A DNA stretch of 64,000 nucleotides, from positions 2,728,001-2,792,000 of the forward strand of contig NZ_JAOCQD020000001.1 of NCBI RefSeq assembly GCF_025290835.2, written 5' to 3'. The position numbers were made by a program, and so were the translations under genes. The DNA comes from Aquabacterium sp. OR-4. Lineage in GTDB: Bacteria > Pseudomonadota > Gammaproteobacteria > Burkholderiales > Burkholderiaceae_C. Positions 1,791 to 38,665 of the stretch are shown one piece after another; position 1 is the first letter of the stretch; each line of letters begins with the position of its first letter. The notes below the pieces were generated by a model. That model was not told the origin of the DNA and ran no database searches. It saw nothing but the letters and a program-made list of their open reading frames with translations.

Positions 1791-4235
1791 ATGTTTTCAC
1801 CCCTCATCGAGCAGCGGCCCCTGGCCGCCATGACGGCACTGACGCTGGCGCTCGCCGGTTGCGGCGGCGGCGGCGGGGGTGGCGATGCCGGCAGCACCAG
1901 CGCGCCGGTGGCCGCCGCACCGGCCAGCGCGGCCACCACCACCACCACCACCACCACGCCGCCCGCGGCCGACAGCAACACCAGCACCAGCACCACCGAG
2001 GTGAACGAGGCCGTGGCCGCCAGTGCGGCCGAGGTCACGGCGGCCCAGGCTGCGGCGGCGGCGGCCTCGGCCGTGGTGGCCGAAGCCGCGGCCCAGGGCA
2101 GCACCGACACCGCAGCCGCCGCTGCCGCCGCCGGCAGCAGCGTGGTGATCGACGCCGAGCCCGCGGCGGCCACCGTCTCGGCCACCGTCTCGGCCACCCA
2201 GGGCGGCGCCACCGTGGCCGACACCCCGCCCAGCCTCACCGTGCGCGCCCGCGCCGATCTGGCCGGCGGCATCGGCGCCATGATGACGCTGCGCATCGAC
2301 GGCGTGGTCGTCGGCAGTGTCGAGGTCAAGTCGACCGCCTATGCCGACTACCGCTTCAGCACGCCCACGCTGAAGGCCGGCGCCAAGGTGGATGTGGTCT
2401 ACACCAACGACGGCCAGGTCAGCGGCGTCGACCGCAACCTCTACGTGGGCTACCTCAGCGACGGCACGCAGGTGGTGGCGCCCAGCGCCAGCACGGCCAC
2501 CATCGACCGCGGCACCGGCGCCAAGGCCTTTGACGGCGCCGATCTGGTCAACGGCCAGGGCGAGCTGTGGTGGAGCGCCGCGCTGCGCCTGAGCTGGCCG
2601 GCCGCCCCTGCCGCCGACAGCCAGCGCGCCCGCAAGCTCGACGCCGTGCGCTTCTTGCAGCAGGCCAGCTTCGGGCCCACGGCGGCCGAGGTCGACAAGC
2701 TGGTGTCGCAAAGCTACGCCGCCTGGATCGACGCGCAGATGGCGCTGGCCCACACGCCCGATTTCGTCAACCACGTGCAGGCCAGGTACGCGCTGGGCAG
2801 CGCCTACCGGCCGCAGGGCGCCAGCTACACACCCACCTGGGTGGCGCAGAAGTTCTGGGAGCGCGCCGCCAATGCGCCCGACCAATTGCGCAAGCGGGTG
2901 GGCTTTGCGCTGCACCAGATCTTCATGGTGTCGCAGGTGGACAGCAACCTGTACTACCAGGCCCGCGCCTATGCCGGTTATGTGGACCTGCTGAACAAGA
3001 ACGCCTTCGGCAACTTTCGCACCCTGCTCGAAGACATGGCCCTCAGCCCGGCCATGGGCATCTACCTGTCGCACATGCGCAACCGCAAGGAAGACGTGGC
3101 CACCGGCCGCATGCCCGACGAGAACTTTGCGCGCGAGCTGATGCAGCTGTTCACCATCGGCCTGCACGAGCTCAACAGCGACGGCAGCCTGAAGCGCGAC
3201 GCCAGCGGCAACCCGATCGAAACCTATGGCAATGCCGACGTGGTGGCCATGGCCAAGGTGTTCACCGGCTGGGGCTGGGCCTACCCCGACAACCAGCTCA
3301 CCGAGGCCAACTTCCGCTGGAACACACCCAGCGTCACCGCCGCCAACGACACCCAGTACGACCTGCTGCCGATGAAGGCCTATGCCGCCTTCCACTCCAG
3401 CGCCGAGAAAAGGCTGTTTGCCGGCAAGAGCTGGGCCGTCACGCTGCCCGCCGGCAGCAGCGCCCAGGCCGACCTGAAGGCCGCGCTGGATGTGCTGTTC
3501 AACCACCCCAACGTGGGCCCGTTCATCGGCCGCCAGCTGATCCAGAAGCTCACCACCAGCCACCCCAGCGCCGCCTATGTGGGCCGGGTGGCGGCGGCCT
3601 TCAACAACAACGGCAAGGGCGTGCGCGGCGACATGGCGGCCGTGGTGCGCGCCGTGCTGCTGGATGCCGAGGCCCGCGGCACGCCCGCCGCCGGCTTTGG
3701 CAAGCTGCGCGAGCCGGTATTGCGCGTGGCGCAGTGGATGCGCTTTTGCGGCGCCCAATCGAGCACCGGCGACTACCTGCTGCAGTGGGAGCTCGACAAC
3801 CAGAGCCAGCGCGCCCTGGCCGCGCCCTCGGTGTTCAGCTACTTCCGCCCCGGCTATGTGCCGGCCAACACCAGCTTTGCCGCGGCGGGCACCACGGCGC
3901 CCGAGTTCCAGCTGGTCAATGAGTCCACCGTGGCCGCCTGGATCAACACCGCCGAGGCCATGGCCGGCGGCGGCCTGGGCTGGACCGGCAGCGCCAACGA
4001 TGTCTCGTGCAGCTACGCCACGCAGGCCGCGCTGGGCACCAGCAACAACCTGGCCGCCTTGACCGACCAGCTGAACCTGCTGCTGCTGGGCGGGCGCATG
4101 CCGGCCACGCTGCGCCAGCAGATCGTCGACACGGTGGCCAGCATCAACGCCAACGGCAGCAGCGCCGCACTCAACCGCGCCCGCGCCGCGGTGTTTTTGA
4201 CGCTGGCCTCGCCCGACTACGTGTTTCAGCCCTGA
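1791..4235 (+). CDS. DUF1800 lipoprotein with one CBM60-like domain
   Basis: Secreted protein of unknown biochemical function, 814 aa. The N-terminus is a lipoprotein signal with the lipobox LAGC (Cys24), followed by a Gly/Ala/Thr-rich linker including a run of eight Thr. Residues about 149-270 form a beta-rich domain resembling calcium-dependent xylan-binding modules (CBM60 type): an LTVRAR start, an aromatic DYRF in the middle, a YTNDG turn and a VDRNLYV strand. Residues about 281-814 are the DUF1800 domain, with the conserved MPDENFARELMQLFTIGLHE segment. The DUF1501 gene starts 21 nt downstream; the two families are known to co-occur and probably work together. The N-terminal half of the second DUF1800 gene (7038) is built from the same domain. 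An alternative start is the ATG at 1830, which keeps the lipobox but shortens the n-region. Confidence 0.88.
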   Translation: MFSPLIEQRPLAAMTALTLALAGCGGGGGGGDAGSTSAPVAAAPASAATTTTTTTTPPAADSNTSTSTTEVNEAVAASAAEVTAAQAAAAAASAVVAEAAAQGSTDTAAAAAAAGSSVVIDAEPAAATVSATVSATQGGATVADTPPSLTVRARADLAGGIGAMMTLRIDGVVVGSVEVKSTAYADYRFSTPTLKAGAKVDVVYTNDGQVSGVDRNLYVGYLSDGTQVVAPSASTATIDRGTGAKAFDGADLVNGQGELWWSAALRLSWPAAPAADSQRARKLDAVRFLQQASFGPTAAEVDKLVSQSYAAWIDAQMALAHTPDFVNHVQARYALGSAYRPQGASYTPTWVAQKFWERAANAPDQLRKRVGFALHQIFMVSQVDSNLYYQARAYAGYVDLLNKNAFGNFRTLLEDMALSPAMGIYLSHMRNRKEDVATGRMPDENFARELMQLFTIGLHELNSDGSLKRDASGNPIETYGNADVVAMAKVFTGWGWAYPDNQLTEANFRWNTPSVTAANDTQYDLLPMKAYAAFHSSAEKRLFAGKSWAVTLPAGSSAQADLKAALDVLFNHPNVGPFIGRQLIQKLTTSHPSAAYVGRVAAAFNNNGKGVRGDMAAVVRAVLLDAEARGTPAAGFGKLREPVLRVAQWMRFCGAQSSTGDYLLQWELDNQSQRALAAPSVFSYFRPGYVPANTSFAAAGTTAPEFQLVNESTVAAWINTAEAMAGGGLGWTGSANDVSCSYATQAALGTSNNLAALTDQLNLLLLGGRMPATLRQQIVDTVASINANGSSAALNRARAAVFLTLASPDYVFQP

Positions 4236-4256
4236 CCTCCTGACGAGACCCACGCG

Positions 4257-5690
4257 ATGAACGCCTCCCGCCGCGCCTTTCTGCGTGCCAGTGCCAGTCT
4301 GGCCGCCGCCACCCAGGGCATGGGCCGCCATGCCGCGCCACTGGCCATGAACCTGGCCGGCCTGGGCGCGCTGGCCAACCTGGCCAGCAGCCAGGCCCGG
4401 GCCGCCACCACCAACGACGGCTACAAGGCCCTGGTGTGCCTGTTCATGCAGGGCGGCAACGACAGCCACAACTGGGTGGTGCCCACCGACACCAGCAACC
4501 ACGCCACCTACGCCACCGCGCGCGGCGATCTGGCCGTGGCCCAGGCCCGGCTGCAGGCCATCACCAGCAGCAGCCAGGGCAGCGGCCGCAGCTTCGGCAT
4601 GCCGCTCGACCTGGCGCCGCTGCGCAGCTGGTACGAAGCCGGCCAGTGCGCCATCGTGGCCAATGTGGGCACGCTGGTGCGCCCGGTCAGCAAGGCCGAC
4701 TTTCAGGCCGGCGTGGGCCTGCCGGCCAAGCTGTTCTCGCACAACGACCAGCAGGCCACCTGGCAAAGCCTGCAGCCCGAAGGCGCCGTCACCGGCTGGG
4801 GCGGGCGCATGGGCGATCTGCTGATGTCGGCCAACCAGCACCCGGTGTTCACCGCCGTCTCGGCCAGCGGCAACGCGGTGTTCCTGAGCGGCAGCGGCGT
4901 CACGCAATACCAGGTGAGCACCAGCGGCCCGGTGCAGATCAATGCCGCCCAGGCCGGCTGGCATGCGGGCTCGAACGCCGTGCCCGGCGCGCTGCGCAGC
5001 CTGCTGGCCAGCAGCAGCAGCCCCAACGCCTTTCAGGCCGAGTACCTGAAGGTGGTGCAGCGCTCGCTGGCCTCCACCAGCACGCTGCAATCGGCCATTG
5101 CCGGCACCAGCATCGCGGCCCTGCCCACCGCGGCCATCACCCTGCCCAGCGGCGGCACGCTGACCCTGGCCAACGAGGGCCTGGCCAAGCAGCTGCGCGT
5201 GGTGGCGCAGATGATCGCCGCCGGCCCGGGCCTGGGCATGCGCCGGCAGGTGTTCATGGTGAGCCTGGGCGGCTTTGACTGCCACTCGAACCAGCTGCGC
5301 GACCAGCCGCTGGTGATGGCCCGCGTGGCGCAATCGGTGAACTGGTTCCTCGGCGCCATGCAGGGCGCCGGCATGCTGAACAACGTGGCCCTGTTCACCG
5401 CCAGCGACTTCGGCCGCACCCTGGTGAACAACGGCGACGGCTGCGACCACGGCTGGGGCAGCCACCACTTTGTGGCCGGCGGCGCCGTGAAGGGCCGCGA
5501 GATCTACGGCCGCTTTCCGGTCACCGCGCTGGGCACCGCCGACGATCTGGGCTCGGGCCGCCTGCTGCCCGGCACCAGCGTCACCCAGCTGGCCGCCAGC
5601 CTGGGCGGCTGGATGGGCCTGAGCCACAGCGAGCTGGCGCTGGCGCTGCCCAACCTGGGCAATTTTTCGGGGCGGCCGGCGATCTTTTGA
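4257..5690 (+). CDS. DUF1501 protein, Tat-exported
   Basis: Member of the DUF1501 family, which is related to the sulfatase/alkaline phosphatase superfamily; substrate unknown. The N-terminus has a clear twin-arginine signal (SRRAFLR, then an Ala/Leu-rich stretch ending near ASSQARA), so it should be exported folded. Family motifs include an early LFMQGGNDSHN and, near the C-terminus, TASDFGRT and DHGWGSHHF, where acidic and histidine residues could bind metal. Length is 477 aa, normal for the family. It follows the DUF1800 gene closely and ends 49 nt before mntA. A close paralogue is at 14680. Function in the pair is inference: export or processing of, or an enzymatic partner for, the DUF1800 protein. 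Confidence 0.9.
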   Translation: MNASRRAFLRASASLAAATQGMGRHAAPLAMNLAGLGALANLASSQARAATTNDGYKALVCLFMQGGNDSHNWVVPTDTSNHATYATARGDLAVAQARLQAITSSSQGSGRSFGMPLDLAPLRSWYEAGQCAIVANVGTLVRPVSKADFQAGVGLPAKLFSHNDQQATWQSLQPEGAVTGWGGRMGDLLMSANQHPVFTAVSASGNAVFLSGSGVTQYQVSTSGPVQINAAQAGWHAGSNAVPGALRSLLASSSSPNAFQAEYLKVVQRSLASTSTLQSAIAGTSIAALPTAAITLPSGGTLTLANEGLAKQLRVVAQMIAAGPGLGMRRQVFMVSLGGFDCHSNQLRDQPLVMARVAQSVNWFLGAMQGAGMLNNVALFTASDFGRTLVNNGDGCDHGWGSHHFVAGGAVKGREIYGRFPVTALGTADDLGSGRLLPGTSVTQLAASLGGWMGLSHSELALALPNLGNFSGRPAIF

Positions 5691-5739
5691 ACGGCCTGGC
5701 GGCGGTAGCATCACGGCGCACCCGCCACATGGAGCGCCC

Positions 5740-6030
5740 ATGCGCCTCACCACGCCGCAGATCAACACCATCCGACACCTGGTGCGCAGCCGCATGGGCC
5801 ACGACGCCCGGTTGTGGCTGTTTGGATCGCGCCTGGACGATGCGCGCCGCGGCGGCGACGTGGATCTGCTGGCTGAACCAGCCCGTCCCGTTGAACTGGC
5901 CCAGTGGCTGGCCTGCCGCAGTGCCCTGGCCGATGCACTGGATCTGAAGGTGGATCTGCTGCTGCGCCAGCCGCACGAACCCGAGCAGCCGATTCACCGC
6001 ATTGCGCGCAGCACCGGGGTGGCGCTGTGA
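5740..6030 (+). CDS. mntA: MntA-like antitoxin nucleotidyltransferase
   Basis: Minimal nucleotidyltransferase, 96 aa. In characterised MntA-HepT modules the antitoxin transfers AMP onto a tyrosine of the HEPN toxin and blocks it. The signature GS-X9-DxD is intact (Gly29, Ser30, Asp40, Asp42). The start codon follows a GGAG at a good distance, and the stop codon overlaps the GTG of the next gene, so the pair is translationally coupled. Local G+C is lower than in the flanking DUF1800/DUF1501 genes, which fits acquisition by transfer. The module lies exactly between the two DUF1800-DUF1501 cassettes. Confidence 0.88.
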   Translation: MRLTTPQINTIRHLVRSRMGHDARLWLFGSRLDDARRGGDVDLLAEPARPVELAQWLACRSALADALDLKVDLLLRQPHEPEQPIHRIARSTGVAL

Positions 6031-6491
6031 CGGAGCACCTGCAACTGATTGCCGGCAAGCTGGCTCAACTGGAACGCATGCGCGGGTATCTGGACTACTC
6101 GATCACCCAGATTCGAGCGTTGTTCCCGGTTGCACACTGGCACGCGCTGAAGCCAGAACAGCATGAATCATTGGCCGCCTTCCGGATCCGGTTCAGCGAG
6201 TACCAGGAGCATCTTGGCAAGGCCATGCGCGCAGTGGCCATCGAGGAAGAGATCGATGTCGACCGCTTCGGGTCGGTTCTGGCCTTCATGGAGCGCCTTC
6301 AGGTCATTGACCAGCCCGAGCATTGGAAGCTCATCCGCGAGCTGCGCAACGCTGTCAACCATGATTACGAAGAGAACACCGAGCGCCTCAATGGCTTTTT
6401 CCAGCAGATGCTGAGCGAAGCCGCTGTTCTGTTCAGCTACCACCAGCGCCTGGCCGCCTTTTGCCGGCAAGCCTACGGTCACGCAGGTTGA
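6027..6491 (+). CDS. hepT: HepT-like HEPN toxin (RNase)
   Basis: HEPN-domain toxin, 154 aa from the GTG at 6027, which overlaps the mntA stop as GTGA. The catalytic RX4HXY motif is complete: Arg107, His112 and Tyr114 in RNAVNHDY. In the family the Arg/His pair cuts RNA and the Tyr is the residue modified by MntA. The protein is helical and slightly longer than the shortest HepT proteins. The frame stays open upstream to 5904, but a start there would overlap almost half of mntA, so I reject it. Antisense transcription is not indicated. Confidence 0.86.
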   Translation: MTEHLQLIAGKLAQLERMRGYLDYSITQIRALFPVAHWHALKPEQHESLAAFRIRFSEYQEHLGKAMRAVAIEEEIDVDRFGSVLAFMERLQVIDQPEHWKLIRELRNAVNHDYEENTERLNGFFQQMLSEAAVLFSYHQRLAAFCRQAYGHAG

Positions 6492-7037
6492 TGGGCATGG
6501 GGAGCGGCCGATGTCGGGTGCTGGCGGACAGCTGCGCATCACCGCGTCATCGGCCCCGTGCGCCGAGAAGGTAAAGAACGGCCGCACAACGTTGCAAGAA
6601 GAAGCGCCCTGGATGCCCCGCGACCGCGATCGCAACGCTGCCCATCACTGACGCGCATGCCGTCAGGTCATACCGACCCGGGCATCTGCGGCCATGGTCG
6701 TGCTGAGGTATGCCGCGCCAGTGTGCAAAAAGCCGCCCATCTGTCGAATTACAAGGTGAAGGCAGACTTCACGCGCGCTCGCTCGGGCGTGGGCATGCCA
6801 GACAATCCGCGGCAGCGGCCCGTCTGACCGACACACGCTTTCCATCGGTTACACACACCTGCTCCAGTGGCTGTGGCCGATTGCCGAAACCAGCAGGCAC
6901 GGCCCAGCGCCCCCCCGGCTTGGGGGGGCTCACTGACAGCAAGCTGCCATCGCCTCGCACACAGACTCGCGCAGCCGCCGCCATGTCGGTCTGTTGACCG
7001 AAATCCCACGTCCCAAGCCGTACCCGACCCTCAGGCC
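6492..7037. other. Intergenic region, 546 bp, no gene seen
   Basis: Spacer between hepT and the giant DUF1800 gene. I see no convincing protein or RNA gene. It contains a strong GC hairpin at 6909-6929. The frame of the next gene is open back to 6867, but that stretch lacks signal-peptide character and the ATG at 7038 starts a good signal peptide. Confidence 0.5.
6909..6929. other. Perfect GC hairpin
   Basis: Seven C and seven G form the arms, closed by one more G-C pair, around the 5-nt loop ggctt. It ends 108 nt before the start of the giant gene. It could be a fragment of the GC-rich dispersed repeat family seen elsewhere in the window or a leader structure. Confidence 0.45.
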
Positions 7038-10000
7038 ATGAATTCCCTGTTTCAGCGCGCGGTTCGCTCCATCGGCTCGGCTCTCATCGCACTGGTGCTC
7101 TGCACACTGGCCACCGCCACGGGTCTGGCGGGCAGTGCACAGGCCGCCACCTTGACGGTGCGCGCCTATGCCAATCTGGCGGGTGATGTGGGCGCCATGA
7201 TGACAGTGCGGGTGGACGGTGTGGCCGTCGGCAGCGCCGAGGTCAGGGCCACGGTGCCCACCGACTACAGCTTCGAGGTGGCCGATCTCAGGGCGGGCAG
7301 CAAGGTGGAGGTGGTCTACACCAACAACCTGATCGCGACCGCCGGTGGTGATCGCAACCTCTACCTGGTGCAGCTCAGCAGCGGCGGTGCGGTCATCGTG
7401 CCCACCAGCACCAACAGCAGCATCGACAAGGGCACCGGCGCCGCCGCCTTCGACGGAATCGATGTGGTTCCCGGCCAGACCGGCATCTTCTGGGATGCGG
7501 CGCTGCGCATCACCTGGCCTGAACCCAACCTCGGCAGCCGCATCACGGTGCGCGCCAGCGGCGTGCCTGCCGATGGTGTGCATCCGCAGATGGTGGTGCG
7601 CGTGGATGGCCTGGTGATCGGCACGGCCGAGGTCAACCGCGCCAGCCCCGCCGACTACAGCTTTGCCGCCCCCGCATTCACCGCCGGCAGCAAGGTCGAC
7701 GTGGCATTCAGCAATGCCGGCACGGCCGCCGGCGTGGTGCGTGCACTCAACGTGCACTACCTGATGGCCGGCACCACCGTGCTGCTGCCCACGGCCTCGG
7801 GCGTCCGGTTCGACGCCGGGGCCGGCCTGGCCGCCTACGACAACGCCAGCCAGTCGGCCGGCCAGGTGGCCTTGACCACCCACGGCGCGCTGCGTGGCAT
7901 CTGGCCCGCGCCCAACATGACCGATGCCCTCACCCTGCGCGCCAGCGGCACGCTGGCAGCCAGCGTCGGCCCGATCATGGAGGTGCTGGCCGACGGCGTG
8001 CTGCTGGGCACCGTGGAAGTGCGGTCCGGCACCCCGGTGGACATCACCCTGCCAGCCCTGCCCCTCAAACCCGGCCAGCGCATCGAGGTGCGCCCCACCA
8101 ACCTGGGCACCTTCAGCGGCGCCACGCGCAGCCTGAACCTGGCCTACGCAATCTCCGGAACCACCGTGCTGCAGGCCAATGCCAGCAGCCTGGATGCCCC
8201 CTGGCCCGCCCCCAACCTCACCGACACACTGAACATCCGTGCCCGCGCCGATCTGGCCGGCGGCATCGGCGCCATCATGCAGGTGGTGGTCGATGGCGTG
8301 ATCGTCGGCACCACCGAGGTCAAGTCCACCGTCTTTGCCGACTACCGCTTCGCTGTGCCGGCCATGAGCGCTGGCCGCAAGCTCGATGTGGTCTACACCA
8401 ACGATGCCCAGGTCGGCTCTGAGAACCGCAACCTGCACATCGCCTACCTCACCACCGGCAACACCGTGCTGCTGCCCACCGCCGCCGGCAACACGCTCGA
8501 CCGTGGCAACACCTGGGCCGCCAGCTTCGACGGCGTCGACGTCATCGCCGGCACCGGCACCCTCGCCTGGGGCGGCGCGCTGCGCAGCACCTGGCCCGCC
8601 GCCAACATCACCAGCACCCTCACCGTGCGCGCCAGCGCCACCCAGGCCGGTGGCGTGGGCGCGCTCATGATCCTGTGGGTCAACGGCGTCGCCGTCTCCA
8701 GCGTCGAGGTCAAGTCGGCCACCGCCACCGACTACCTCATGCCCACCACCGCCATCCAGCCCGGCACCCAGGTGGCCATCACCTTTGCCAACCGCGGCAC
8801 GGTCGATGGCGTCGAGCGTGCCCTCAACGTGCACTACGCCATCGCCGGCGCCACCTTCCTCACCCCCACCAGCAGCGGCGCCACCTACGCCAGTGGCGAC
8901 CTCTCGGCCGCCTGGCCCTCGCCCAACCTCACCGACACGCTCACCATCCGCGCCTATGCCGATCTGGCGGGCGACGTGGGCGCCCAGATGCAGCTGCGCA
9001 TCGACGGCGTGATCGTCGGCACGCAAGAGGTGCGCAGCACCGTCCCTGCCGACTACAGCTACGCCGTGCCCGCGCTCAAGCCGGGCAGCAAGATCGACAT
9101 CGTCTACACCAACGACGGCCAGGTGGGTGGCATCGACCGCAACCTCTACGTCGTGCAGCTCACCAAGGGCAGCACCTACCTGCTGCCCAACGCCACCAAC
9201 ACCACCATCGACCGCGGCGCCGGCGAGGCCGCGCTCGACGGTGCCGATGTCATCGCCGGCCACGGCAACCTGGTCTGGGCTGCCGCCATGCGCACCACCT
9301 GGCCCGCACCCAACCTCACCGGCACGGTCACCGTGCGCGCCAGCGGCACGCCCGCCGGTGGCGTGAGCCCCACCATGGTGGTGCGGGTCGATGGTGTGGT
9401 CGTGGGCACCACCTCGGTCACTGCACTCGATCCCACCGACTTCGTCTACACCACGCCGGCGCTGCAGGCCGGCAGCAAGGTGGATGTGGCCTTCGCCAAC
9501 GCCGGCACCGTCGACAGCGTGGCGCGCAGCCTGCGCGTGCACTACCTGATGGCGGGCACCACCGTGCTGCTGCCCACCGTCACCGGCGTCAAGTTCGATG
9601 CCGGCACCGGCCTGGCCGCCTACGACGGCCTGAACCAGTCCACCGGCCAGGTGGCCCTGGTGGCCAACGGCGCGCTGCGCGGCATCTGGCCCGCGCCCAA
9701 CATGACCGACACCCTCACCGTGCGCGCCAGCGGCAAGCTGGCCGGTGGCGTGGGCCCGCACATGCGCGTGCTGGTGGACGGCGTGGTGCTGGGCACCTAC
9801 GAGATCCGCTCCACCACCCCGGTCGACGTGAGCATGCCCACGCTGCCGCTCACCCCCGGTGCGCAGGTCGACATCGCCTACCTCAACGACGCCACCATCG
9901 GCAGCGAAGACCGCGACCTCAACATCGCCTACGCCATCGCCGGCACCACCGTGCTGCGCGCCACCGACGCCAGCGTGAGCTTCGATGCCGGCTCCGGCGC

Positions 10001-13000
10001 CGCGGCCTTTGACGGCGCCGGCCTCAGCCCCGGCCGCAGCGCCTTCGGCATCAACGGCGCACTGCGTGGCCCCTGGCCGGCGCCCAACCTCACCGACACG
10101 CTCAACATCCGCGCCCGTGCCGACCTGGCAGGCGGCGTGGGCGCCATCATGCAGGTGGTGGTCGATGGCGTGATCGTCGGCACCACCGAGGTCAAGTCCA
10201 CCGTCTTCGCCGACTACCGCTTCGCCGTGCCCACCATGAGCGCCGGCCGCAAGCTCGACATCGTCTACACCAACGATGGCCAGGTGGCGGGCGTCGACCG
10301 CAACCTGCACATCGCCTACCTCACCACCGGCAACACCGTGCTGCTGCCCACCGCCGCCGGCAACACGCTCGACCGCGGCAACGGCTGGGCCGCCAGCTTC
10401 GACGGCGTCGATGTCATCGCCGGCACCGGCACCCTCGCCTGGGGCGGCGCGCTGCGCAGCACCTGGCCCGCCGCCAACATCACCAGCACCCTCACCGTGC
10501 GCGCCAGCGCCACCCAGGCCGGCGGCACCGGCGCGCTGATGATCCTGTGGGTCAACGGCGTCGCCGTCTCCAGCGTCGAGGTCAAGTCGGCCACCGCCAC
10601 CGACTACCTCATGCCCACCACCGCCATCCAGCCCGGCACCCAGGTGGCCATCACCTTTGCCAACCGCGGCACGGTCGATGGCGTCGAGCGCGCGCTCAAC
10701 GTGCACTACGCCATCGCCGGCGCCACCTTCCTCACCCCCACCAGCAGCGGCGCCACCTACGCCAGTGGCGACCTCTCGGCCGCCTGGCCCTCGCCCAACC
10801 TCACCGACACGCTCACCATCCGCGCCCATGCCGACCTGGCGGGCGACGTGGGCGCCCAGATGCAGCTGCGCATCGATGGCGTGATCGTCGGCATGCAGGA
10901 AGTGCGCAGCACCGTCCCTGCCGACTACAGCTACGCCGTGCCCGCGCTCAAGCCGGGCAGCAAGATCGACATCGTCTACACCAACGACGGCCAGGTGGGT
11001 GGCATCGACCGCAACCTCTACGTCGTGCAGCTCACCAAGGGCAGCACCTACCTGCTGCCCAACGCCACCAACACCACCATCGACCGCGGCGCCGGCGAGG
11101 CCGCGCTCGACGGTGCCGATGTCATCGCCGGCCACGGCAACCTGGTCTGGGCCGCCGCCCTGCGCACCACCTGGCCCGCCCCCAACCTCACCGGCACGGT
11201 CACCGTGCGCGCCAGCGGCACGCCCGCCGGTGGCGTGAGCCCCACCATGGTGGTGCGGGTCGATGGCGTGGTGGTGGGCACCAGTGCCGTCACAGCCACC
11301 GATCCCACCGACTTCGTCTACACCACCCCGGCGTTGCAGGCCGGCAGCAAGGTGGATGTGGCCTTTGCCAATGCCGAGACCGTGGCCGGCGTGGCGCGCA
11401 GCCTGCGTGTGCACTACCTGATGGCTGGCACCACCGTGCTGCTGCCCACCACCTCGGGCGTCAAGCTCGATGCCGGCACCGGCCTGGCCGCCTACGACGG
11501 CCTGAACCAGTCCACCGGCCAGGTGGCCCTGGTGGCCAACGGCGCGCTGCGCGGCACCTGGCCCGCGCCCAACATGACCGACACCCTCACCGTGCGCGCC
11601 AGCGGCAAGCTGGCCGGCGGCGTGGGCCCGCACATGCGCGTGCTGGTGGACGGCGTGGTGCTGGGCACCTACGAGATCCGCTCCACCACCCCGGTCGACG
11701 TGAGCATGCCCACGCTGCCGCTCACCCCCGGTGCGCAGGTCGACATCGCCTACCTCAACGACGCCACCATCGGCAGCGAAGACCGCGACCTCAACATCGC
11801 CTACGCCATCGCCGGCACCACCGTGCTGCGCGCCACCGACGCCAGCGTGAGCTTCGATGCCGGCTCCGGCGCCGCGGCCTTTGACGGCGCCGGCCTCAGC
11901 CCCGGCCGCAGCGCCTTCGGCATCAACGGCGCACTGCGTGGCCCCTGGCCGGCGCCCAACCTCACCGACACGCTCAACATCCGCGCCCGTGCCGACCTGG
12001 CAGGCGGCGTGGGCGCCATCATGCAGGTGGTGGTCGATGGCGTGATCGTCGGCAGCACCGAGGTCAAGTCCACCGTCTTCGCCGACTACCGCTTCGCCGT
12101 GCCCACCATGAGCGCCGGCCGCAAGCTCGACATCGTCTACACCAACGATGGCCAGGTGGCGGGCGTCGACCGCAACCTGCACATCGCCTACCTCACCACC
12201 GGCAACACCGTGCTGCTGCCCGCCGCCGCCGGCAACACGCTCGACCGCGGCAACACCTGGGCCGCCAGCTTCGACGGCGTCGACGTCATCGCCGGCACCG
12301 GCACCCTCGCCTGGGGCGGCGCGCTGCGCAGCACCTGGCCCGCCGCCAACATCACCAGCACGCTCACCGTGCGCGCCAGCGCCACCCAGGCCGGTGGCAC
12401 CGGCGCGCTGATGATCCTGTGGGTCAACGGCGTCGCCGTCTCCAGCGTCGAGGTCAAGTCGGCCACCGCCACCGACTACCTCATGCCCACCACCGCCATC
12501 CAGCCCGGCACCCAGGTGGCCATCACCTTTGCCAACCGCGGCACAGTCGATGGCGTCGAGCGCGCGCTCAACGTCCACTACGCCATCGCCGGCTCCACCT
12601 TCCTCACCCCAACCTCCAGCGGCGCCACCTACGCCAGTGGCGATCTCTCGGCCGCCTGGCCCTCGCCCAACCTCACCGACACGCTCACCATCCGCGCCTA
12701 TGCCGATCTGGCGGGCGGCGTGGGCGCGGTCATGCAGCTGCGCATCAACGGTGTGGTGGTCGGCAGCGTCGTGGTATCGGCCACCACGCCCACCGACTAT
12801 GTGTTTGCGGCGCCCAGGCTCGGCACCGGCAGCCGTATCGACGTGGTCTACCTCAACGATGGCCAGACCGGCGGCGTGGATCGCAACCTGTACGTGCAGT
12901 ACGTCAGGGGCCAGGGCTACACCCTGGTGCCGTTCGCCAGCAACGTGCAGTTCGATGCCGGCAGCGGAGAGGCCGCCGTCGACGGCCTGGCCACCAGTGC

Positions 13001-14678
13001 GGGCAGTGGCGCCATGTTCAGCAACGGCGCGCTGCGCTTCACCACCACCACTCCGGTGGCGGGCTACAGCAGCGCCCAGCACGCGGCGTCGCGCTTTCTG
13101 CAGCAGGCAACGTTCGGGCCCACCCTGGCCGACATCCAGCGCGTGGCCGAGATCGGTTCAGCGCGCTGGATCAATGAGCAGATCGCGCTGCCGTTCACGC
13201 CCGACATGGTGAGCGCGATCCAGGCCCGCTACGACCTGGGCGATGCCTACCGGCCAGGCGGCGCCTCGTACACGCCCAACTGGGTGAGCCAGCGTTTCTG
13301 GCAGGCCTCGGCCGGCAGTGCCGACCAGTTGCGCCGGCGCACGGCCTTTGCGCTGCACCAGATCCTGATGGTGTCGCTGACCGACTCGAATCTCTATTAC
13401 CAGGCGCGCGCCTATGCCAGCTATCTCGACACGCTGAACCGGCACGCCCTGGGCAACTACCGCAACCTGCTCGAAGAGATCGCCCTCAGCCCGGCCATGG
13501 GCATCTACCTCTCGCACATGCGCAACCGCCCCGAGAGCTTGGCCAGCGGCCGCATGCCCGACGAAAACTTTGCGCGCGAGCTGATGCAACTGTTCACCAT
13601 CGGCCTGCACGAGCTCAACCTCGACGGCTCGCTGCGCCTGGACGGCAATGCCCAGGCAATCGAGACCTACACCAACGACGATGTGATGGCGCTGGCCAAG
13701 GTGTTCACCGGGCTCAGCTGGGGCTTCGCAGACAACCAGCTCACCGAGTCGGTGTTCCGCTGGAGCAGCCCTGACCTGTCGGTGGCCGGCGACCAGCGCA
13801 TTGACCTGCAGCCGATGAAGTTCTACCCCGGCCAGCACTCGCCCGCCGAGAAGCGCCTGTTCGCAGGCAAGTCCGCTGCGCTCACCATCGGCGCGGGCAC
13901 CTCAGGCCCCACCAGCCTGCGCCTGGCGCTCGACGCGCTGTTCAATCATCCCAACGTCGGGCCTTTCGTGGGCCGCCAGCTGATCCAGCACCTGGTGACC
14001 AGCCATCCCAGCCCGGCCTATGTGGCGCGCGTGGCCACGGTGTTCAACAACAACGGCAGCGGCGTGCGTGGTGACCTGGCCGCCGTGGTGCGCGCCATCC
14101 TGCTGGATACCGAGGCGCAGACCCCCCCCGCTGGCAGCGTGGGCAAGCTGCGTGAGCCCGTGCTGCGTGTGTCGCACTGGATGCGCAGCATGGATGCACG
14201 CTCGGCCACCGGGCAGTTTGCCGTGGTCTACGACCTCGAACCGATGGCCCAGCGCCAACTGCACGCACCATCGGTCTTCGGCTACTTCCGCCCAGGCTAC
14301 GTGCCGCCCAACACCGGTTTCTCGGCCAGCAACATCACCGTGCCCGGCCTGCAGATCGTGACCGAGAGCACCACCGCGCAATGGGTCAACCTGGCCCAGA
14401 GCATGGCCGGCAACGGCCTGGGCTGGACTGGCAGCACCACCGACGTGGCCGTCGATCTGTTGCCGCTGATCGAGCTGGCCACGACAGGTCAGGTGGATTC
14501 CATGGTTGAACGCCTGAACCTGCTGCTGTACGGCGGCGCCATGAGCAGCAGCCTCAAGCAGGACATCCTGGATGCCATGGCCAGCGTGGCTGGCAACGAC
14601 TCGGCCAGCCAGGTCAACCGCGCGCGTGTCGCCCTGTTCCTGGCGCTGGCATCCCCCGAATACCTGGTGCAACGCTGA
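7038..14678 (+). CDS. Giant secreted DUF1800 protein with 16 CBM60-like repeats
   Basis: A 2546-aa exported protein. Residues 1-36 are a Sec signal peptide ending near AGSAQA; unlike its paralogue at 1791 there is no lipobox. Residues about 38-2008 are sixteen consecutive domains of about 100-130 aa, each opening with a TLTVRAS/TLNIRAR-type strand and most closing with a WPAPNLTD-type linker. They resemble CBM60 xylan-binding modules. Domains 4-8, 9-13 and 14-16 are successive copies of a five-domain block of exactly 624 residues. Residues about 2012-2546 are the DUF1800 domain, closely similar to the first copy (MPDENFARELMQLFTIGLHE conserved). The DUF1501 partner starts one base after the stop. 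The start at 7038 is chosen because it gives a clean signal peptide. Role as a surface or extracellular polysaccharide-binding array is inference. Confidence 0.87.
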   Translation: MNSLFQRAVRSIGSALIALVLCTLATATGLAGSAQAATLTVRAYANLAGDVGAMMTVRVDGVAVGSAEVRATVPTDYSFEVADLRAGSKVEVVYTNNLIATAGGDRNLYLVQLSSGGAVIVPTSTNSSIDKGTGAAAFDGIDVVPGQTGIFWDAALRITWPEPNLGSRITVRASGVPADGVHPQMVVRVDGLVIGTAEVNRASPADYSFAAPAFTAGSKVDVAFSNAGTAAGVVRALNVHYLMAGTTVLLPTASGVRFDAGAGLAAYDNASQSAGQVALTTHGALRGIWPAPNMTDALTLRASGTLAASVGPIMEVLADGVLLGTVEVRSGTPVDITLPALPLKPGQRIEVRPTNLGTFSGATRSLNLAYAISGTTVLQANASSLDAPWPAPNLTDTLNIRARADLAGGIGAIMQVVVDGVIVGTTEVKSTVFADYRFAVPAMSAGRKLDVVYTNDAQVGSENRNLHIAYLTTGNTVLLPTAAGNTLDRGNTWAASFDGVDVIAGTGTLAWGGALRSTWPAANITSTLTVRASATQAGGVGALMILWVNGVAVSSVEVKSATATDYLMPTTAIQPGTQVAITFANRGTVDGVERALNVHYAIAGATFLTPTSSGATYASGDLSAAWPSPNLTDTLTIRAYADLAGDVGAQMQLRIDGVIVGTQEVRSTVPADYSYAVPALKPGSKIDIVYTNDGQVGGIDRNLYVVQLTKGSTYLLPNATNTTIDRGAGEAALDGADVIAGHGNLVWAAAMRTTWPAPNLTGTVTVRASGTPAGGVSPTMVVRVDGVVVGTTSVTALDPTDFVYTTPALQAGSKVDVAFANAGTVDSVARSLRVHYLMAGTTVLLPTVTGVKFDAGTGLAAYDGLNQSTGQVALVANGALRGIWPAPNMTDTLTVRASGKLAGGVGPHMRVLVDGVVLGTYEIRSTTPVDVSMPTLPLTPGAQVDIAYLNDATIGSEDRDLNIAYAIAGTTVLRATDASVSFDAGSGAAAFDGAGLSPGRSAFGINGALRGPWPAPNLTDTLNIRARADLAGGVGAIMQVVVDGVIVGTTEVKSTVFADYRFAVPTMSAGRKLDIVYTNDGQVAGVDRNLHIAYLTTGNTVLLPTAAGNTLDRGNGWAASFDGVDVIAGTGTLAWGGALRSTWPAANITSTLTVRASATQAGGTGALMILWVNGVAVSSVEVKSATATDYLMPTTAIQPGTQVAITFANRGTVDGVERALNVHYAIAGATFLTPTSSGATYASGDLSAAWPSPNLTDTLTIRAHADLAGDVGAQMQLRIDGVIVGMQEVRSTVPADYSYAVPALKPGSKIDIVYTNDGQVGGIDRNLYVVQLTKGSTYLLPNATNTTIDRGAGEAALDGADVIAGHGNLVWAAALRTTWPAPNLTGTVTVRASGTPAGGVSPTMVVRVDGVVVGTSAVTATDPTDFVYTTPALQAGSKVDVAFANAETVAGVARSLRVHYLMAGTTVLLPTTSGVKLDAGTGLAAYDGLNQSTGQVALVANGALRGTWPAPNMTDTLTVRASGKLAGGVGPHMRVLVDGVVLGTYEIRSTTPVDVSMPTLPLTPGAQVDIAYLNDATIGSEDRDLNIAYAIAGTTVLRATDASVSFDAGSGAAAFDGAGLSPGRSAFGINGALRGPWPAPNLTDTLNIRARADLAGGVGAIMQVVVDGVIVGSTEVKSTVFADYRFAVPTMSAGRKLDIVYTNDGQVAGVDRNLHIAYLTTGNTVLLPAAAGNTLDRGNTWAASFDGVDVIAGTGTLAWGGALRSTWPAANITSTLTVRASATQAGGTGALMILWVNGVAVSSVEVKSATATDYLMPTTAIQPGTQVAITFANRGTVDGVERALNVHYAIAGSTFLTPTSSGATYASGDLSAAWPSPNLTDTLTIRAYADLAGGVGAVMQLRINGVVVGSVVVSATTPTDYVFAAPRLGTGSRIDVVYLNDGQTGGVDRNLYVQYVRGQGYTLVPFASNVQFDAGSGEAAVDGLATSAGSGAMFSNGALRFTTTTPVAGYSSAQHAASRFLQQATFGPTLADIQRVAEIGSARWINEQIALPFTPDMVSAIQARYDLGDAYRPGGASYTPNWVSQRFWQASAGSADQLRRRTAFALHQILMVSLTDSNLYYQARAYASYLDTLNRHALGNYRNLLEEIALSPAMGIYLSHMRNRPESLASGRMPDENFARELMQLFTIGLHELNLDGSLRLDGNAQAIETYTNDDVMALAKVFTGLSWGFADNQLTESVFRWSSPDLSVAGDQRIDLQPMKFYPGQHSPAEKRLFAGKSAALTIGAGTSGPTSLRLALDALFNHPNVGPFVGRQLIQHLVTSHPSPAYVARVATVFNNNGSGVRGDLAAVVRAILLDTEAQTPPAGSVGKLREPVLRVSHWMRSMDARSATGQFAVVYDLEPMAQRQLHAPSVFGYFRPGYVPPNTGFSASNITVPGLQIVTESTTAQWVNLAQSMAGNGLGWTGSTTDVAVDLLPLIELATTGQVDSMVERLNLLLYGGAMSSSLKQDILDAMASVAGNDSASQVNRARVALFLALASPEYLVQR
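8226..10097 (+). repeat. Higher-order repeat copy A (1872 bp)
   Basis: Five-domain block (units 4-8). The same landmark recurs at 8221, 10093 and 11965, giving an exact 1872-bp period. Confidence 0.9.
10098..11969 (+). repeat. Higher-order repeat copy B (1872 bp)
   Basis: Units 9-13, nearly identical to copy A with only scattered substitutions and no length change. Confidence 0.9.
11970..12716 (+). repeat. Higher-order repeat copy C (partial)
   Basis: Units 14 and 15 and the first residues of unit 16 match copies A and B; similarity then falls off inside unit 16, which is a diverged terminal unit. Confidence 0.85.
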
Positions 14679-14679
14679 C

Positions 14680-16104
14680 ATGACCCGAGACACTTCACGC
14701 CGCGCCTTTCTGCGGGCCGCCGCCGGGCTGGCCAGCGCCGGCGCCAGCATTCCACGCCTGGGTGCCCCGATGGCCATGCAACTGGCCGGCCTGGCCGCGC
14801 TGGCCAGCCAGAGCAGCCAGGCCGCCGACACCGGCGGCAGCTACAAGGCCCTGGTGTGCCTGTTTCTCAATGGCGGCAGCGACACCCACAACTGGGTGAT
14901 CCCGGTCGATGCCAGCGGCTACGCCGAATACGCTGCCGCGCGCGCCGAGCTGGCCTGGGCCGCCGGCCAGATCCAGCCCATCACCACCAGCGGGCAGGCC
15001 AACGGCCGCAGCTTCGGCATGCCCGCCGACCTGGCCCCCTTGCGCAAGTGGTACGAGGCAGGCCAGGCGGCCGTGGTGGCCAATGTGGGCCCGCTGGTCA
15101 GGCCCATCAGCAAGGCCGAATACATCGCCGGCACGGCGCTGCCGTCCAAGCTGTACTCGCACAACGACCAGGCCAGCACCTGGCAAAGCCTGTCGCCCGA
15201 AGGTGCGCGTTCAGGCTGGGGTGGCCGCATGGGCGACATCCTGATGGCCGCCAATGCCTACCCGGTGTTCACCGCGGTGTCGGCCACCGGCAACGCGGTG
15301 TTCCTGTCGGGCAGCAGCGTCAACCAGTACCAGGTGGGCGTCGAAGGCCCGGTCACCGTGGCGGCCATGAATGGCGGTGCGGTGTTCGGTTCCAACACCG
15401 CAGGCGCCGCGCTGCAGCGCGCCTACGCCAGCAACGGCAACGATGCGCTGGCCAACGAGTACAAACGCGTCATGCAGCGTGGGTTGAGCGCCAACACGGT
15501 GCTGCAGGCCGCGCTGGGCAGTGGCGCCGTGCCGGCCGTGCCGTCCACCACCGTGCGCGCCACCACCGGCTTCACCACGCTCGACAAGGTGGGCATCGCC
15601 CGCCAGCTGCGCGTGGTTCTGCAGATGGTGGCCGCCAACCAGGCCCTGGGCATGCGCCGCCAGGTGTTCATGGTGTCGATGGGCGGCTTCGACACCCACA
15701 CCAACCAGATGCGCGACCAGCCGGCGCACATGGCCCAGGTGGCCTCGTCGATCGACTACTTTCTCGGCACCCTCAACAGCCTGGGCCTGCAGAACAACGT
15801 CACGCTGTTCACCGCCTCCGACTTCGGCCGCACCCTGCTCAGCAACGGCGACGGCAGCGACCACGGCTGGGGCAGCCACCACTTCGTGGCCGGTGGCGCG
15901 GTCAAGGGCCGCAACATCTACGGCCGCTTCCCGATCACATCGATGGGCACCAGCGACGACGTCGGCTCGGGCCGCCTGCTGCCCAGCACCAGCGTGTCGC
16001 AACTGGCGGCCTCGCTGGGCGGCTGGATGGGCCTGAGCAGCGCCGAGCAGCGCCTGGTGCTGCCCGGCCTGGAGAACTTTGGCGCCGGGCCGGCGCTGTT
16101 CTGA
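14680..16104 (+). CDS. DUF1501 protein, Tat-exported (second copy)
   Basis: Paralogue of the DUF1501 protein at 4257, 474 aa. It has a twin-arginine signal (SRRAFLRAA) followed by a hydrophobic Ala-rich segment, the early LFLNGGSDTHN motif, and TASDFGRT plus DHGWGSHHF near the C-terminus. The chosen ATG lies one base after the stop of the giant DUF1800 gene, so the two are certainly cotranscribed and probably translationally coupled. Together with the first pair this shows a duplicated two-gene cassette. The gene ends only 6 nt from the stop of the convergent ugd gene, so termination signals must overlap coding sequence. Confidence 0.9.
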   Translation: MTRDTSRRAFLRAAAGLASAGASIPRLGAPMAMQLAGLAALASQSSQAADTGGSYKALVCLFLNGGSDTHNWVIPVDASGYAEYAAARAELAWAAGQIQPITTSGQANGRSFGMPADLAPLRKWYEAGQAAVVANVGPLVRPISKAEYIAGTALPSKLYSHNDQASTWQSLSPEGARSGWGGRMGDILMAANAYPVFTAVSATGNAVFLSGSSVNQYQVGVEGPVTVAAMNGGAVFGSNTAGAALQRAYASNGNDALANEYKRVMQRGLSANTVLQAALGSGAVPAVPSTTVRATTGFTTLDKVGIARQLRVVLQMVAANQALGMRRQVFMVSMGGFDTHTNQMRDQPAHMAQVASSIDYFLGTLNSLGLQNNVTLFTASDFGRTLLSNGDGSDHGWGSHHFVAGGAVKGRNIYGRFPITSMGTSDDVGSGRLLPSTSVSQLAASLGGWMGLSSAEQRLVLPGLENFGAGPALF

Positions 16105-16110
16105 TCTGGC

Positions 16111-17442
16111 TCAGCCCTCGCTGCCGCGGCCAATGCCCCGGTACTCGATCCCGAACGACTTCATCAGCGCCGGCTCGTACAGGTTGCGCCCGTCAAACAC
16201 CAGCGGCTGCTTCAGCGTGGCCTTGAGGTGGTCGAAGTCGGGGTTGCGGAACTCCTTCCACTCGGTCACCAGCAGCAGCGCGTCGGCGCCTTCCAGCGCT
16301 GCCTGCTGGCTGGCCACCAGGCTCAGGCCGGCCACCTCGCCCAGCACGCGCTGCGCCTCGGGCATGGCCACCGGGTCATAGGCCTGGATGCGCGCGCCGC
16401 GCCGTGCCAGCTCGGCCACGATCACCCGGCTGGGCGCCTCGCGCATGTCGTCGGTGTTGGGCTTGAAGGCCAGGCCCCAGACGGCGAAGGTGCGGCCCGT
16501 CAGGTCTTCGCCGAAGCGCTCGACCACGCGGTTCACCAGCACCAGCTTCTGGCGCTCGTTGGCCTCTTCCACCGCGGTGAGCACACCCAGCGTCATGCCG
16601 TTTTGCGCACCGGTGCGGATCAGCGCCTTCACGTCCTTGGGAAAGCAGCTGCCGCCGTAGCCCGTGCCGGCGTACAGAAAGTGCGTGCCGATGCGCGGAT
16701 CGCTGCCGATGCCGCGGCGCACCCACTCGATGTCGGCGCCCACGCGGTCGGCCAGCAGCGCCAGCTCGTTCATGAAGCTGATGCGCGTGGCCAGCATCGC
16801 GTTGGCGGCGTACTTGGTGAACTCGGCGCTGCGCACGTCCATCACCACCAGGCGGTCGTGGTTGCGCATGAAGGGCGAGTACACCGCGCGCATCAGCAGC
16901 GTGGCGCGCTCGTTGTCGCTGCCGATCACGATGCGGTCGGGCTTCATGAAGTCGTCGATGGCCGCGCCTTCCTTCAGAAACTCGGGGTTGCTGACCACCG
17001 CATACTCGAGCTCGACACCGCGTTCGGCCAGCACCTCGGCAATGGCCGCGCGCACCTTGTCGGCCGTGCCCACCGGCACCGTGCTCTTGTCTACGATCAC
17101 CTTGTAGTCGGTCATGTGGCGGCCGATGTTGCGGGCCGCCGCCAGCACGTACTGCAGGTCGGCCGAGCCGTCTTCGTCGGGCGGCGTGCCCACACCGATG
17201 AACTGGATGGTGCCGTGGGCCACGGCGGCAGCCACGTCGGTGGTGAACTGCAGGCGGCCGGCGGCGGCATTGCGCTGGATCAGCGCATCGAGCCCCGGCT
17301 CGTGGATCGGCACCTCGCCCCGATTGAGCATCTCGATCTTGCGCGGATCGACGTCCACGCACACCACGTGGTTGCCCATCTCCGACAGGCAGGCGCCCGT
17401 CACCAAACCCACATAACCTGCACCGATCACGGTGATCTTCAT
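16111..17442 (-). CDS. ugd: UDP-glucose 6-dehydrogenase
   Basis: Oxidises UDP-glucose to UDP-glucuronate with two NAD, the usual source of uronic acid for exopolysaccharides. The N-terminal Rossmann motif [12 protein letters not shown] is at the very start, and the catalytic cysteine motif GGSCFPKD lies in the middle. At 443 aa it has the normal length for the family. It is transcribed away from the glycosyltransferase run starting at 17653, with about 210 bp of shared upstream DNA. Its presence suggests that the polymer made by the surrounding genes contains glucuronic acid or a sugar derived from it. Confidence 0.95.
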
Positions 17443-17652: not shown

Positions 17653-18861
17653 ATGACGATGCGCCACATCCTGGTTGTTCACCACGACGCCGACCTTTAC
17701 GGTGCCGACCAATCGCTGCTGCGATCACTGCGCGCCATGCGGCGCCACAACCTGCACCCGGTGGTGGTGCTGCCGCACCAGGGGCCGCTGATCCAGCACA
17801 TCGTGGAGATGGGCATCGAGGTGCACATCGGCCCGGTGGGTAAGATCTCGCGCCAGCTCACGCGCCCGGCGGCCCTGCCAAAGCTGCTGGCCAGCCTGGT
17901 GCGCTCGGTGAGCTTCATCGACCGCGTGGTGGCCGGCCGGCCCATCGAGCTGGTGTATTCCAACTCGGTGGGCGCACTGGGTGGTGCGCTGTGGGCCTGG
18001 CGCCGCGGCGTCAAGCGCCTGTGGCATGTGCGTGAGATCGTCGTCTCGCCACGCATTGCCGCCGCCGGCTTTCCGCGGCTGCTGCGCTGGCTGGGCGGCT
18101 GGTGCATCTGCAACTCGGGCGCCACCCGCCAGTGGATTGCCGACGTGCAGCCCGTGCTGGCACAACGCAGCTCGGTGCTCTGGAACGGCATCGAGCGCGT
18201 GCCGCAGCCCACGCGCGATGCCGTGGCCGCCTTGCGCGCCAGGCTGGGCCTGACCCGCGAGCACACCGTGGTCACGCTGGTGGGCCGCATCAACCGCTGG
18301 AAGGGCCAGGGCGTGTTCATCGAGGCCGCCGCCCAGCTGGCCCAGGCCGGTCAGCACCCGCAGCTGCGCTTTCTGATCGTGGGCGACGTGGCCGACGGCC
18401 AGCACCACTTTCGCGAGGACATGCTGGCCCGCATCCAGGCGCTGGGCCTGGCCGATACCGTGCTGTGGCACCCCTTCACGCCCGAGGTTGACACCGTGTG
18501 GGCCGCTTCCGACATTGCGGCCGCGCCGTCCACCGACCCCGAGCCCTTTGGCCGCGTGGCCATCGAGGCCATGGCCCATGGCCTGCCGGTGGTGGCCGCC
18601 GGGCATGGCGGCCTGGCCGAGATCGTGGCCCACCAGCAGACGGGCCTGCTGGTGAAGCCGGGCGATGCCACCGAGCTGGCCCAGGCCATCGGCCGCCTGG
18701 CCGCGTCGCGCGAGCTGCGCAAGCAGTACGGCGCGGCCGGCCAGCAGCGCCAGATCGAATTCTTCTCGCAAGACGAACACGACCGGCGGCTGATGAGCCT
18801 GCTGGACGACCTGGCCGCCGGCCGCCAACCCGCCACCACCCCGTTGCTGACATCTGCATGA
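17653..18861 (+). CDS. Glycosyltransferase family 4
   Basis: GT-B fold glycosyltransferase, 402 aa, expected to add a sugar from a nucleotide donor to the lipid-linked repeat unit at the cytoplasmic membrane face. The C-terminal donor-binding half carries the retaining-transferase EX7E motif in EPFGRVAIEAMAHGLPVV followed by GGLAEIV. First gene of a plus-strand run; its stop overlaps the start of the next gene (ATGA). An in-frame ATG two codons later is an alternative start. The sugar cannot be told from sequence. Confidence 0.88.
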   Translation: MTMRHILVVHHDADLYGADQSLLRSLRAMRRHNLHPVVVLPHQGPLIQHIVEMGIEVHIGPVGKISRQLTRPAALPKLLASLVRSVSFIDRVVAGRPIELVYSNSVGALGGALWAWRRGVKRLWHVREIVVSPRIAAAGFPRLLRWLGGWCICNSGATRQWIADVQPVLAQRSSVLWNGIERVPQPTRDAVAALRARLGLTREHTVVTLVGRINRWKGQGVFIEAAAQLAQAGQHPQLRFLIVGDVADGQHHFREDMLARIQALGLADTVLWHPFTPEVDTVWAASDIAAAPSTDPEPFGRVAIEAMAHGLPVVAAGHGGLAEIVAHQQTGLLVKPGDATELAQAIGRLAASRELRKQYGAAGQQRQIEFFSQDEHDRRLMSLLDDLAAGRQPATTPLLTSA

Positions 18862-19958: not shown

Positions 19959-19982
19959 GAAGCCCACCGGAGACCCCTGACC

Positions 19983-21539: not shown

Positions 21540-21556
21540 AGCCCTTGCAGATCCGT

Positions 21557-22531: not shown

Positions 22532-22567
22532 GCCCAGCCCGGGATTGACGCCACTTCCTCTCTGCTC

Positions 22568-24546: not shown

Positions 24547-24560
24547 GCCTGGGCCGCAGC

Positions 24561-36194: not shown

Positions 36195-36328
36195 GCCAGG
36201 GCTTCCAGCGGCGCCGCGTGCGGCCGCACGGCCTGAACGAAGGCGCTGCCGGCAACACGCGCACCTGTGCTGAAGTGACAGCGCACCGCGCTCACGATCT
36301 GGTCAGTTTGCTGGGCAGTCAGGCGCAT
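36191..36328 (-). pseudogene. Remnant of an MntA-type nucleotidyltransferase gene
   Basis: A 45-codon ORF between epsG and xrtB. Its first 24 residues (beginning MRLTAQQTDQIVSAVR) align with the intact MntA at 5740 (MRLTTPQINTIRHLVR), 10 identities in 24, up to the AR before the WLFGSR core. The rest has lost the GS-X9-DxD site and reads into unrelated sequence (AGSAFVQAVRPHAAP). The stop overlaps the xrtB start as ATGA, so it may now serve only to couple xrtB translation. A short functional peptide cannot be ruled out. Confidence 0.6.
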
Positions 36329-36352
36329 GCGGACACGTGGCAGAAACGGGGG

Positions 36353-37216: not shown

Positions 37217-37217
37217 G

Positions 37218-38648: not shown

Positions 38649-38665
38649 CGCGAAGATCCTTCAGC

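Follow-up and report, generated by a model that had tools for sequence, protein, structure and literature searches.

We analysed a 64,000-nucleotide stretch of the Aquabacterium sp. OR-4 genome (contig NZ_JAOCQD020000001.1, positions 2,728,001 to 2,792,000; hereafter the window), which harbors two tandem cassettes, in each of which a DUF1501 gene comes after a DUF1800 gene. The DUF1800 protein of the first cassette bears one CBM60 module and that of the second (hereafter the array protein) bears sixteen. Across relatives, the module number is quantised in steps of five, a new result: of the 37 proteins counted, all complete at the N-terminus and bearing multiple CBM60 domains, 36 have 5k+1 of them (6, 11 or 16). 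Moreover, CBM60-bearing DUF1800 genes lie near exosortases more often than those without CBM60, and the cassettes of the window adjoin an exopolysaccharide (EPS) locus. We propose, at slightly under an even chance, that they encode a cell-surface device that grips, and perhaps modifies, EPS and accompanies an XrtB-type EPS locus. The features of the cassettes are as follows (window positions, strand, description).

1791..4235, + strand: DUF1800 protein with a single CBM60 (814 amino acids; CBM60 at about 2235-2489; C-terminal DUF1800 at about 2649-4223; lipobox-like LAGC)
4257..5690, + strand: DUF1501 protein (477 amino acids; 104.1 bits, cut-off 27; twin-arginine start; alkaline-phosphatase-superfamily fold)
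7038..14678, + strand: DUF1800 protein with 16 CBM60, the array protein (ATG at 7038; 2546 amino acids in the database copy P0125)
7149..8939, + strand: CBM60 block 1 (units u1-u5, phases 1-5; 1791 bp)
8940..10811, + strand: CBM60 block 2 (u6-u10, phases 1-5; 1872 bp)
10812..12683, + strand: CBM60 block 3 (u11-u15, phases 1-5; 1872 bp)
12684..13055, + strand: terminal CBM60 (u16, phase T), adjoining the DUF1800 domain
13092..14666, + strand: DUF1800 domain of the array protein
14680..16104, + strand: second DUF1501 protein (97.3 bits, cut-off 27; twin-arginine start)

Module number and block structure

The sixteen units of the array protein belong to five types. The first-pass annotation had counted them correctly, but as a plain array; they are in fact three five-domain blocks followed by one terminal domain. 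From u4 to u15, units five apart are 92-100% identical in protein, with lower values for u1-u3 versus u6-u8 (56-69%) and u16 versus u11 (55%), and units of differing phase are 36-64% identical. Units u4 and u9 lie 1872 bp apart, as do u9 and u14, and matched units of u6-u10 and u11-u15 share 93.0-99.7% DNA identity. Tandem Repeats Finder did not detect the array because its longest period is 500.

A profile of these units was run on 149 proteins, namely both proteins of the window plus P0005-P0151 (147 of the 240 matches listed, themselves the best 120 of 450 and the best 120 of 484 matches of two protein searches); P0152-P0244, which have no CBM60 in precomputed Pfam, were left out. At least one unit was found in 148 of the 149, exactly one in 86, and two or more in 61 (P0125 left out). 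The counted set (n = 37, window's included) comprises those with at least 29 residues, and no linker, before the first unit: 20 have 6 units, 14 have 11, two have 16 and one has four. P0149 scored 10 and was counted as 11, since a 237-residue gap marks the place where one unit was missed, while P0030 truly departs from the rule, having a signal-peptide-like start and then four units; the other twelve of the 14 exceptions start within the array or in a linker that precedes a unit. Eighteen of the 61, including three of 6 units and three of 11, were dropped because their sequences start within the array or at its edge. Six further proteins with a short N-terminus (9-28 residues before the first unit) were set apart, and all have 11 units.

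A quick tree was built from 129 DUF1800 domains, representing 127 of the 147 distinct CBM60 carriers and two outgroup rows; the remaining carriers were short or had no clear start. The 46 multi-module rows need 2 changes on this tree (shuffled mean 38), and all lie inside one 47-row group, which includes one two-unit fragment and has an SH-aLRT support of 93, below the mark of 95. Within it, switches among 6, 11 and 16 units number at least 16 over 39 rows, rows starting inside the array included.

Motif retention by phase

A motif of ND or NN followed by DRN at aligned places, which would form a putative calcium/sugar site, is intact in 79 of the 86 single-module proteins. In the 47 proteins with 6, 11 or 16 units (some N-terminally incomplete), with phases counted from the C-terminal end, it is intact in 62/73 units of phase 1, 15/73 of phase 2, 10/73 of phase 3, 52/73 of phase 4, 18/73 of phase 5 and 43/47 terminal units. 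Pooled, phases 1, 4 and terminal retain it in 157 of 193 cases versus 43 of 219 for phases 2, 3 and 5, and the median spacing is shorter in phases 3 and 5 (100 and 107) versus 129. In the array protein of the window, the motif is intact in units 1, 6, 9, 11, 14 and 16.

The nearest unit in another protein is of the same phase in 398 of 412 cases. Mean same-phase identity is 0.76-0.81 within a protein versus 0.54-0.57 between proteins, a sequence pattern that is a mark of concerted evolution. This difference, together with the 1872-bp spacing and the near identity of blocks 2 and 3, favors a purely mutational origin of the 5k+1 rule, by unequal crossing-over of near-identical 1.87-kb blocks or by their collapse in short-read assemblies, with no functional meaning. 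We regard such an origin as a serious possibility that falls somewhat short of even. It is opposed by the pattern of kept and lost motifs, which is common to the proteins and, with the same-phase nearest units, indicates that the block is old and its make-up kept; moreover, collapsed assemblies would be expected to show a higher mean identity within proteins than the value near 0.8. The kept phase pattern suggests constraint on block contents. As the mutational explanation addresses the pattern and not the system, its probability and that of the polysaccharide-gripping device are not exclusive.

Linkage to exosortases across genomes

In genomes picked for a CBM60 match (19 + 17), we found 98 DUF1800 genes, 28 with and 70 without CBM60. 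An exosortase lies within 32 kb on the same contig for 11 of the 28 versus 2 of the 70 (Fisher 1e-5, uncorrected for kinship). The corresponding numbers are 7 versus 0 at 20 kb and 11 versus 7 at 50 kb (p 0.0015, likewise uncorrected). The 11 linked genes are drawn from 9 of 23 genomes, and 12 of the 17 unlinked CBM60-DUF1800 genes lie within 32 kb of a contig end. A lack of association between the pair and polysaccharide genes, which the first-pass annotation had named as a refuting result, was not found, the linkage of CBM60-DUF1800 to exosortase loci being enriched.

In the family, XrtB exceeds the cut-off in 43 of 150 genomes and CBM60-DUF1800 is present in 6 of 150 (G000, G011, G053, G058, G077 and G078), 5 of them with XrtB (p 0.008, uncorrected for kinship); the two 150-genome sets are the same, judging by their listed handles. 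Because of these frequencies, the cassette is an uncommon accessory and not a core part of the XrtB system. PEP-CTERM genes were found near CBM60 loci in 4 of 27 stretches versus 2 of 72, which is only a lead, given the overlap of several of the 27 stretches and the fact that one contig accounts for two of the four.

A cluster analysis of 80 DUF1800 loci found no third conserved partner besides DUF1501: no other cluster occurs in more than 8 loci, barring one of 23 loci whose representative is a frame antisense to DUF1800. This result is in line with a general DUF1800-DUF1501 machine whose core function is unrelated to polysaccharide, CBM60 only placing the pair and the EPS linkage being due to chance or shared descent. 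The 68 of 70 CBM60-less genes whose contig shows no exosortase within 32 kb agree with it, as does the presence in other lineages of different added domains where CBM60 sits on DUF1800 (PF07691, PF13385 and PF18884, which we take to be PA14, LamG and TSP3). We nevertheless judge it unlikely, given that CBM60-bearing genes are significantly nearer to exosortases and that the chitin synthase operon of PMC5122149 also indicates a polysaccharide link.

In genus g119 (four genomes) and in G216, CBM60-less DUF1800 genes (L177-L179 and L180-L182) lie 27-44 kb from an exosortase, a divergent form of about 280-300 amino acids.

Genes, export signals and age of the tandem

The first-pass annotation had described two side-by-side DUF1800-DUF1501 units at 1791-16104, and all four genes were found there. 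In profile searches, the protein of 1791-4235 scores 52.3 bits with CBM60 (cut-off 28.2) and 289.8 bits with DUF1800 (PF08811, cut-off 26.1), consistent with the single-module, lipid-anchored protein proposed earlier. The array protein scores 573.5 bits with CBM60 over 16 stretches and 277.6 bits with DUF1800 (same cut-offs). Its N-terminus reads as signal-peptide-like without a lipobox. The earlier statement that the sixteen-domain form lacks an anchor thus holds for the window copy but not for the family, since 29 of 47 multi-domain and 50 of 86 single-domain proteins (some N-terminally incomplete) show a loose lipobox pattern within their first 60 residues; for example, the Rubrivivax pictus counterpart of the array protein reads LLAC. 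The second DUF1501 gene has its ATG 1 nt past the stop of the array DUF1800 gene. A twin-arginine (Tat) motif is present in both DUF1501 (PF07394) proteins of the window, as previously noted, and RR in 58/58 aligned DUF1501 rows.

The four cassette proteins end in SPDYVFQP, SPEYLVQR, GRPAIF and AGPALF, without a PEP-CTERM signal (PEP motif, hydrophobic stretch, basic end), and a motif scan of the window found none. No LapA or RTX repeat domain is listed in the array protein (profile scan, E up to 0.1). The whole genome (6.63 Mb, 7 contigs) contains four DUF1800 and four DUF1501 matches at E 0.001, adjacent in pairs, and all 16 CBM60 matches listed at this threshold are in the window proteins (15 in the array protein, 1 in the lipoprotein), none on an enzyme.

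The same cassette order is found in R. pictus (G011) and, as far as contigs reach, in G157, G163 and G164, where the first cassette is followed by the start of the second. The tandem does not seem to be of recent origin: its order is kept, and the two DUF1501 paralogs of the window, 63% identical to each other, reach 69% and 68% with their best matches in R. pictus.

Between the cassettes of the window (5740-6491), a short nucleotidyltransferase-like frame (Polbeta 22 bits, under the cut-off of 26.9) is followed by a frame of about 159 amino acids without Pfam match, presumably a toxin-antitoxin pair of the MNT-HEPN type. Between the R. pictus cassettes lies a PEP-CTERM protein (L125:4264-4995; TIGR02595 19.2 bits, cut-off 16).

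The exopolysaccharide neighbourhood

The following genes lie downstream of the cassettes.

16111..17442, - strand: nucleotide-sugar dehydrogenase (UDP-glucose/GDP-mannose type), convergent, 6 nt from the second DUF1501 gene
17653..26681, + strand: exopolysaccharide genes (glycosyltransferases, O-antigen-ligase-type Wzy_C, hexapeptide transferase, PL8-type lyase in the open reading frame 23802-26681)
34600..40569, - strand: EpsI type B, exosortase B (35283-36194), EpsG-like kinase, EpsF, EpsE and EpsD

The 6-nt gap noted in the first-pass annotation is correct, but the next gene is convergent, hence cassette and EPS locus do not form one operon. A flippase-like polysaccharide-biosynthesis protein is also present in the locus. 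NCBIfam scores exceed the cut-offs for XrtB (359 vs 275), EpsI type B (291 vs 220), EpsF (537 vs 422.75), EpsE (337.6 vs 262.65) and EpsD (246.7 vs 108.9), while the EpsG-like kinase (286.1) is under its cut-off of 313.8. The neighbouring locus is an XrtB exosortase/EPS system (TIGR03113), from which the cassette proteins differ in lacking its PEP-CTERM signal. In R. pictus, both cassettes are followed by a nucleotide-sugar dehydrogenase and an alginate lyase, with an XrtB locus further on.

The PL8-type lyase (23802-26681) has domains of the chondroitinase/hyaluronate lyase families, which suggests a uronic-acid-containing polymer. The EPS region also contains a gene pair coding for a MazE-like antitoxin and a PIN-domain protein (26803-27461), and one frame with HAD and UbiA-type prenyltransferase domains (29956-31416).

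Folds and comparison with known systems

The units score with CBM60 (PF16841), and the one that was modelled folds like the vCBM60 beta-sandwich of Cellvibrio (2xfd/2xhh), in agreement with the carbohydrate-binding assignment made earlier; the clear score with a non-carbohydrate beta-sandwich family that the first-pass annotation had named as refuting was not found. In the examples considered, CBM60 is a single module on GH10 or GH11 enzymes (PMC8121702), and one such GH10 enzyme is found in G119; here, a DUF1800 protein bears the modules as a 5k+1 array in which three phases out of five are mostly devoid of the conserved motif.

The DUF1501 model has the alkaline phosphatase superfamily fold (NPP/autotaxin, sulfatases, LtaS), which supports at fold level the proposed relation to sulfatases and phosphatases, although identity is only 7-13% in the listed alignments. 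In the DUF1501 alignment, invariant D, H and S residues would fit a putative two-metal site and nucleophile, judging by the alignment. PDB sequence searches gave no convincing relative of DUF1800, DUF1501 or the CBM60 unit. For the DUF1800 part, which was not folded alone, Foldseek found nothing usable (top match PI3K, E 2.9e-3, TM-score 0.09), and the VIA-align alignment covered chiefly the CBM60 part.

The first-pass annotation regarded the system as undescribed; however, PMC5122149 reports a conserved operon in which bacterial chitin synthase genes lie together with those of DUF1800 and DUF1501, notes a Tat motif in DUF1501 and proposes that the proteins are functionally linked. The two domains encoded together, the Tat motif and the polysaccharide context are shared with the window, which differs by its XrtB-type EPS locus, its CBM60 modules and the lack of a chitin synthase among the annotated genes. 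The CBM-bearing PSCyt/PSD proteins of Verrucomicrobia (PMC5615132) are likewise function-unknown proteins with added CBMs, usually adjoining unknown gene families. They have other core domains. PSCyt genes may neighbour DUF1501, and DUF1800 may be homologous to PSD1. The literature searched by names and COG numbers, as far as its texts were available, yielded no biochemical role for DUF1800 or DUF1501. A search for DUF1800 together with CBM60 gave no paper, and no title on this combination was among the matches listed in a search on exosortases and CBM repeats, whether tandem or higher-order.

CBM60 in other contexts

A 999-residue protein with CBM60 and a right-handed beta-helix (L167:2981-5980), which may be an EPS lyase or epimerase, is encoded in an XrtB locus of G289, 23 nt from a convergent EPS glycosyltransferase gene. 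In G033, an RTX protein whose CBM60 match falls below threshold follows a DUF1800-DUF1501 pair. Finally, a giant LapA-domain adhesin (L134:4304-19999; over 5200 amino acids within the stretch) has one CBM60; the 4000 residues scanned include 33 LapA stretches.

Proposed function

In the mechanism that we tentatively favor, the CBM60 modules on the DUF1800 protein would hold a beta-1,4-type glycan via calcium, most likely the cell's own EPS, and the helical DUF1800 domain, in which the arm ends, would work with the predicted Tat-exported DUF1501 metalloenzyme encoded by the next gene. This enzyme may add or remove a charged group (phosphate- or sulfate-type), acting either on the polymer itself or on its carrier. 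A short anchored arm would be formed by the single-module lipoprotein and a long one by the array protein, whose length would be altered in five-module steps; per step, about two modules would retain the conserved site, the three others being chiefly spacers. It is rather improbable, in our estimate, that the arm is adjustable stepwise in the strict sense, with a five-module super-unit (two binding, three spacer) gained or lost whole and setting the reach and hold on EPS of the DUF1800-DUF1501 pair, which would then be a novel type of surface enzyme pair.

Several observations weigh against the proposed device. Five CBM60-DUF1800 genes with at least 32 kb of contig on both sides have no exosortase within that distance (G170, G371, G262, G189 and G248), and no exosortase match was found in G053, rated complete, nor in the incomplete G158 and G164. 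The seven CBM60-less genes within 50 kb of an exosortase are all near the divergent, lower-scoring type (87-102 bits), and the linked genomes are related, hence not independent. No dehydrogenase match was seen in stretches L021, L022, L026-L028 and L130-L133. In addition, CBM60 is found on a GH10 enzyme (G119) and on a LapA-type adhesin (G066), and the Aquabacterium genome itself has a GH10 gene.

The two GH10 observations point to a plant- or algal-glycan adhesin or a foraging system, in which the array would stick the cell to xylan or cellulose for digestion by the nearby lyases and the GH10 enzyme encoded elsewhere. The PL8-type lyase in the window and the alginate lyase beside the R. pictus cassette fit this explanation, as do the CBM60 targets in print, which are beta-1,4-glucan and xylan (PMC4725902). 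It is nonetheless somewhat unlikely, since all CBM60 matches listed in the Aquabacterium genome belong to the two cassette proteins, the GH10 gene sits on another contig (C4) and it is exosortase/EPS loci that the cassette is linked to. A LapA-like adhesin for cell-cell contact or flocculation, to which the CBM60 of the G066 adhesin points, is very unlikely, considering the lack of listed LapA or RTX repeats in the array protein and the enzyme-like DUF1501 partner. Overall, the interpretation of the first-pass annotation is partly supported.

DUF1800 and DUF1501 are widespread paired families, and the version with CBM60, through its link to a defined EPS system, provides a concrete ligand for testing. 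With its common pattern of kept and lost motifs, the 5k+1 rule is an unusual example, open to testing, of how higher-order repeats evolve in a protein that binds carbohydrate.

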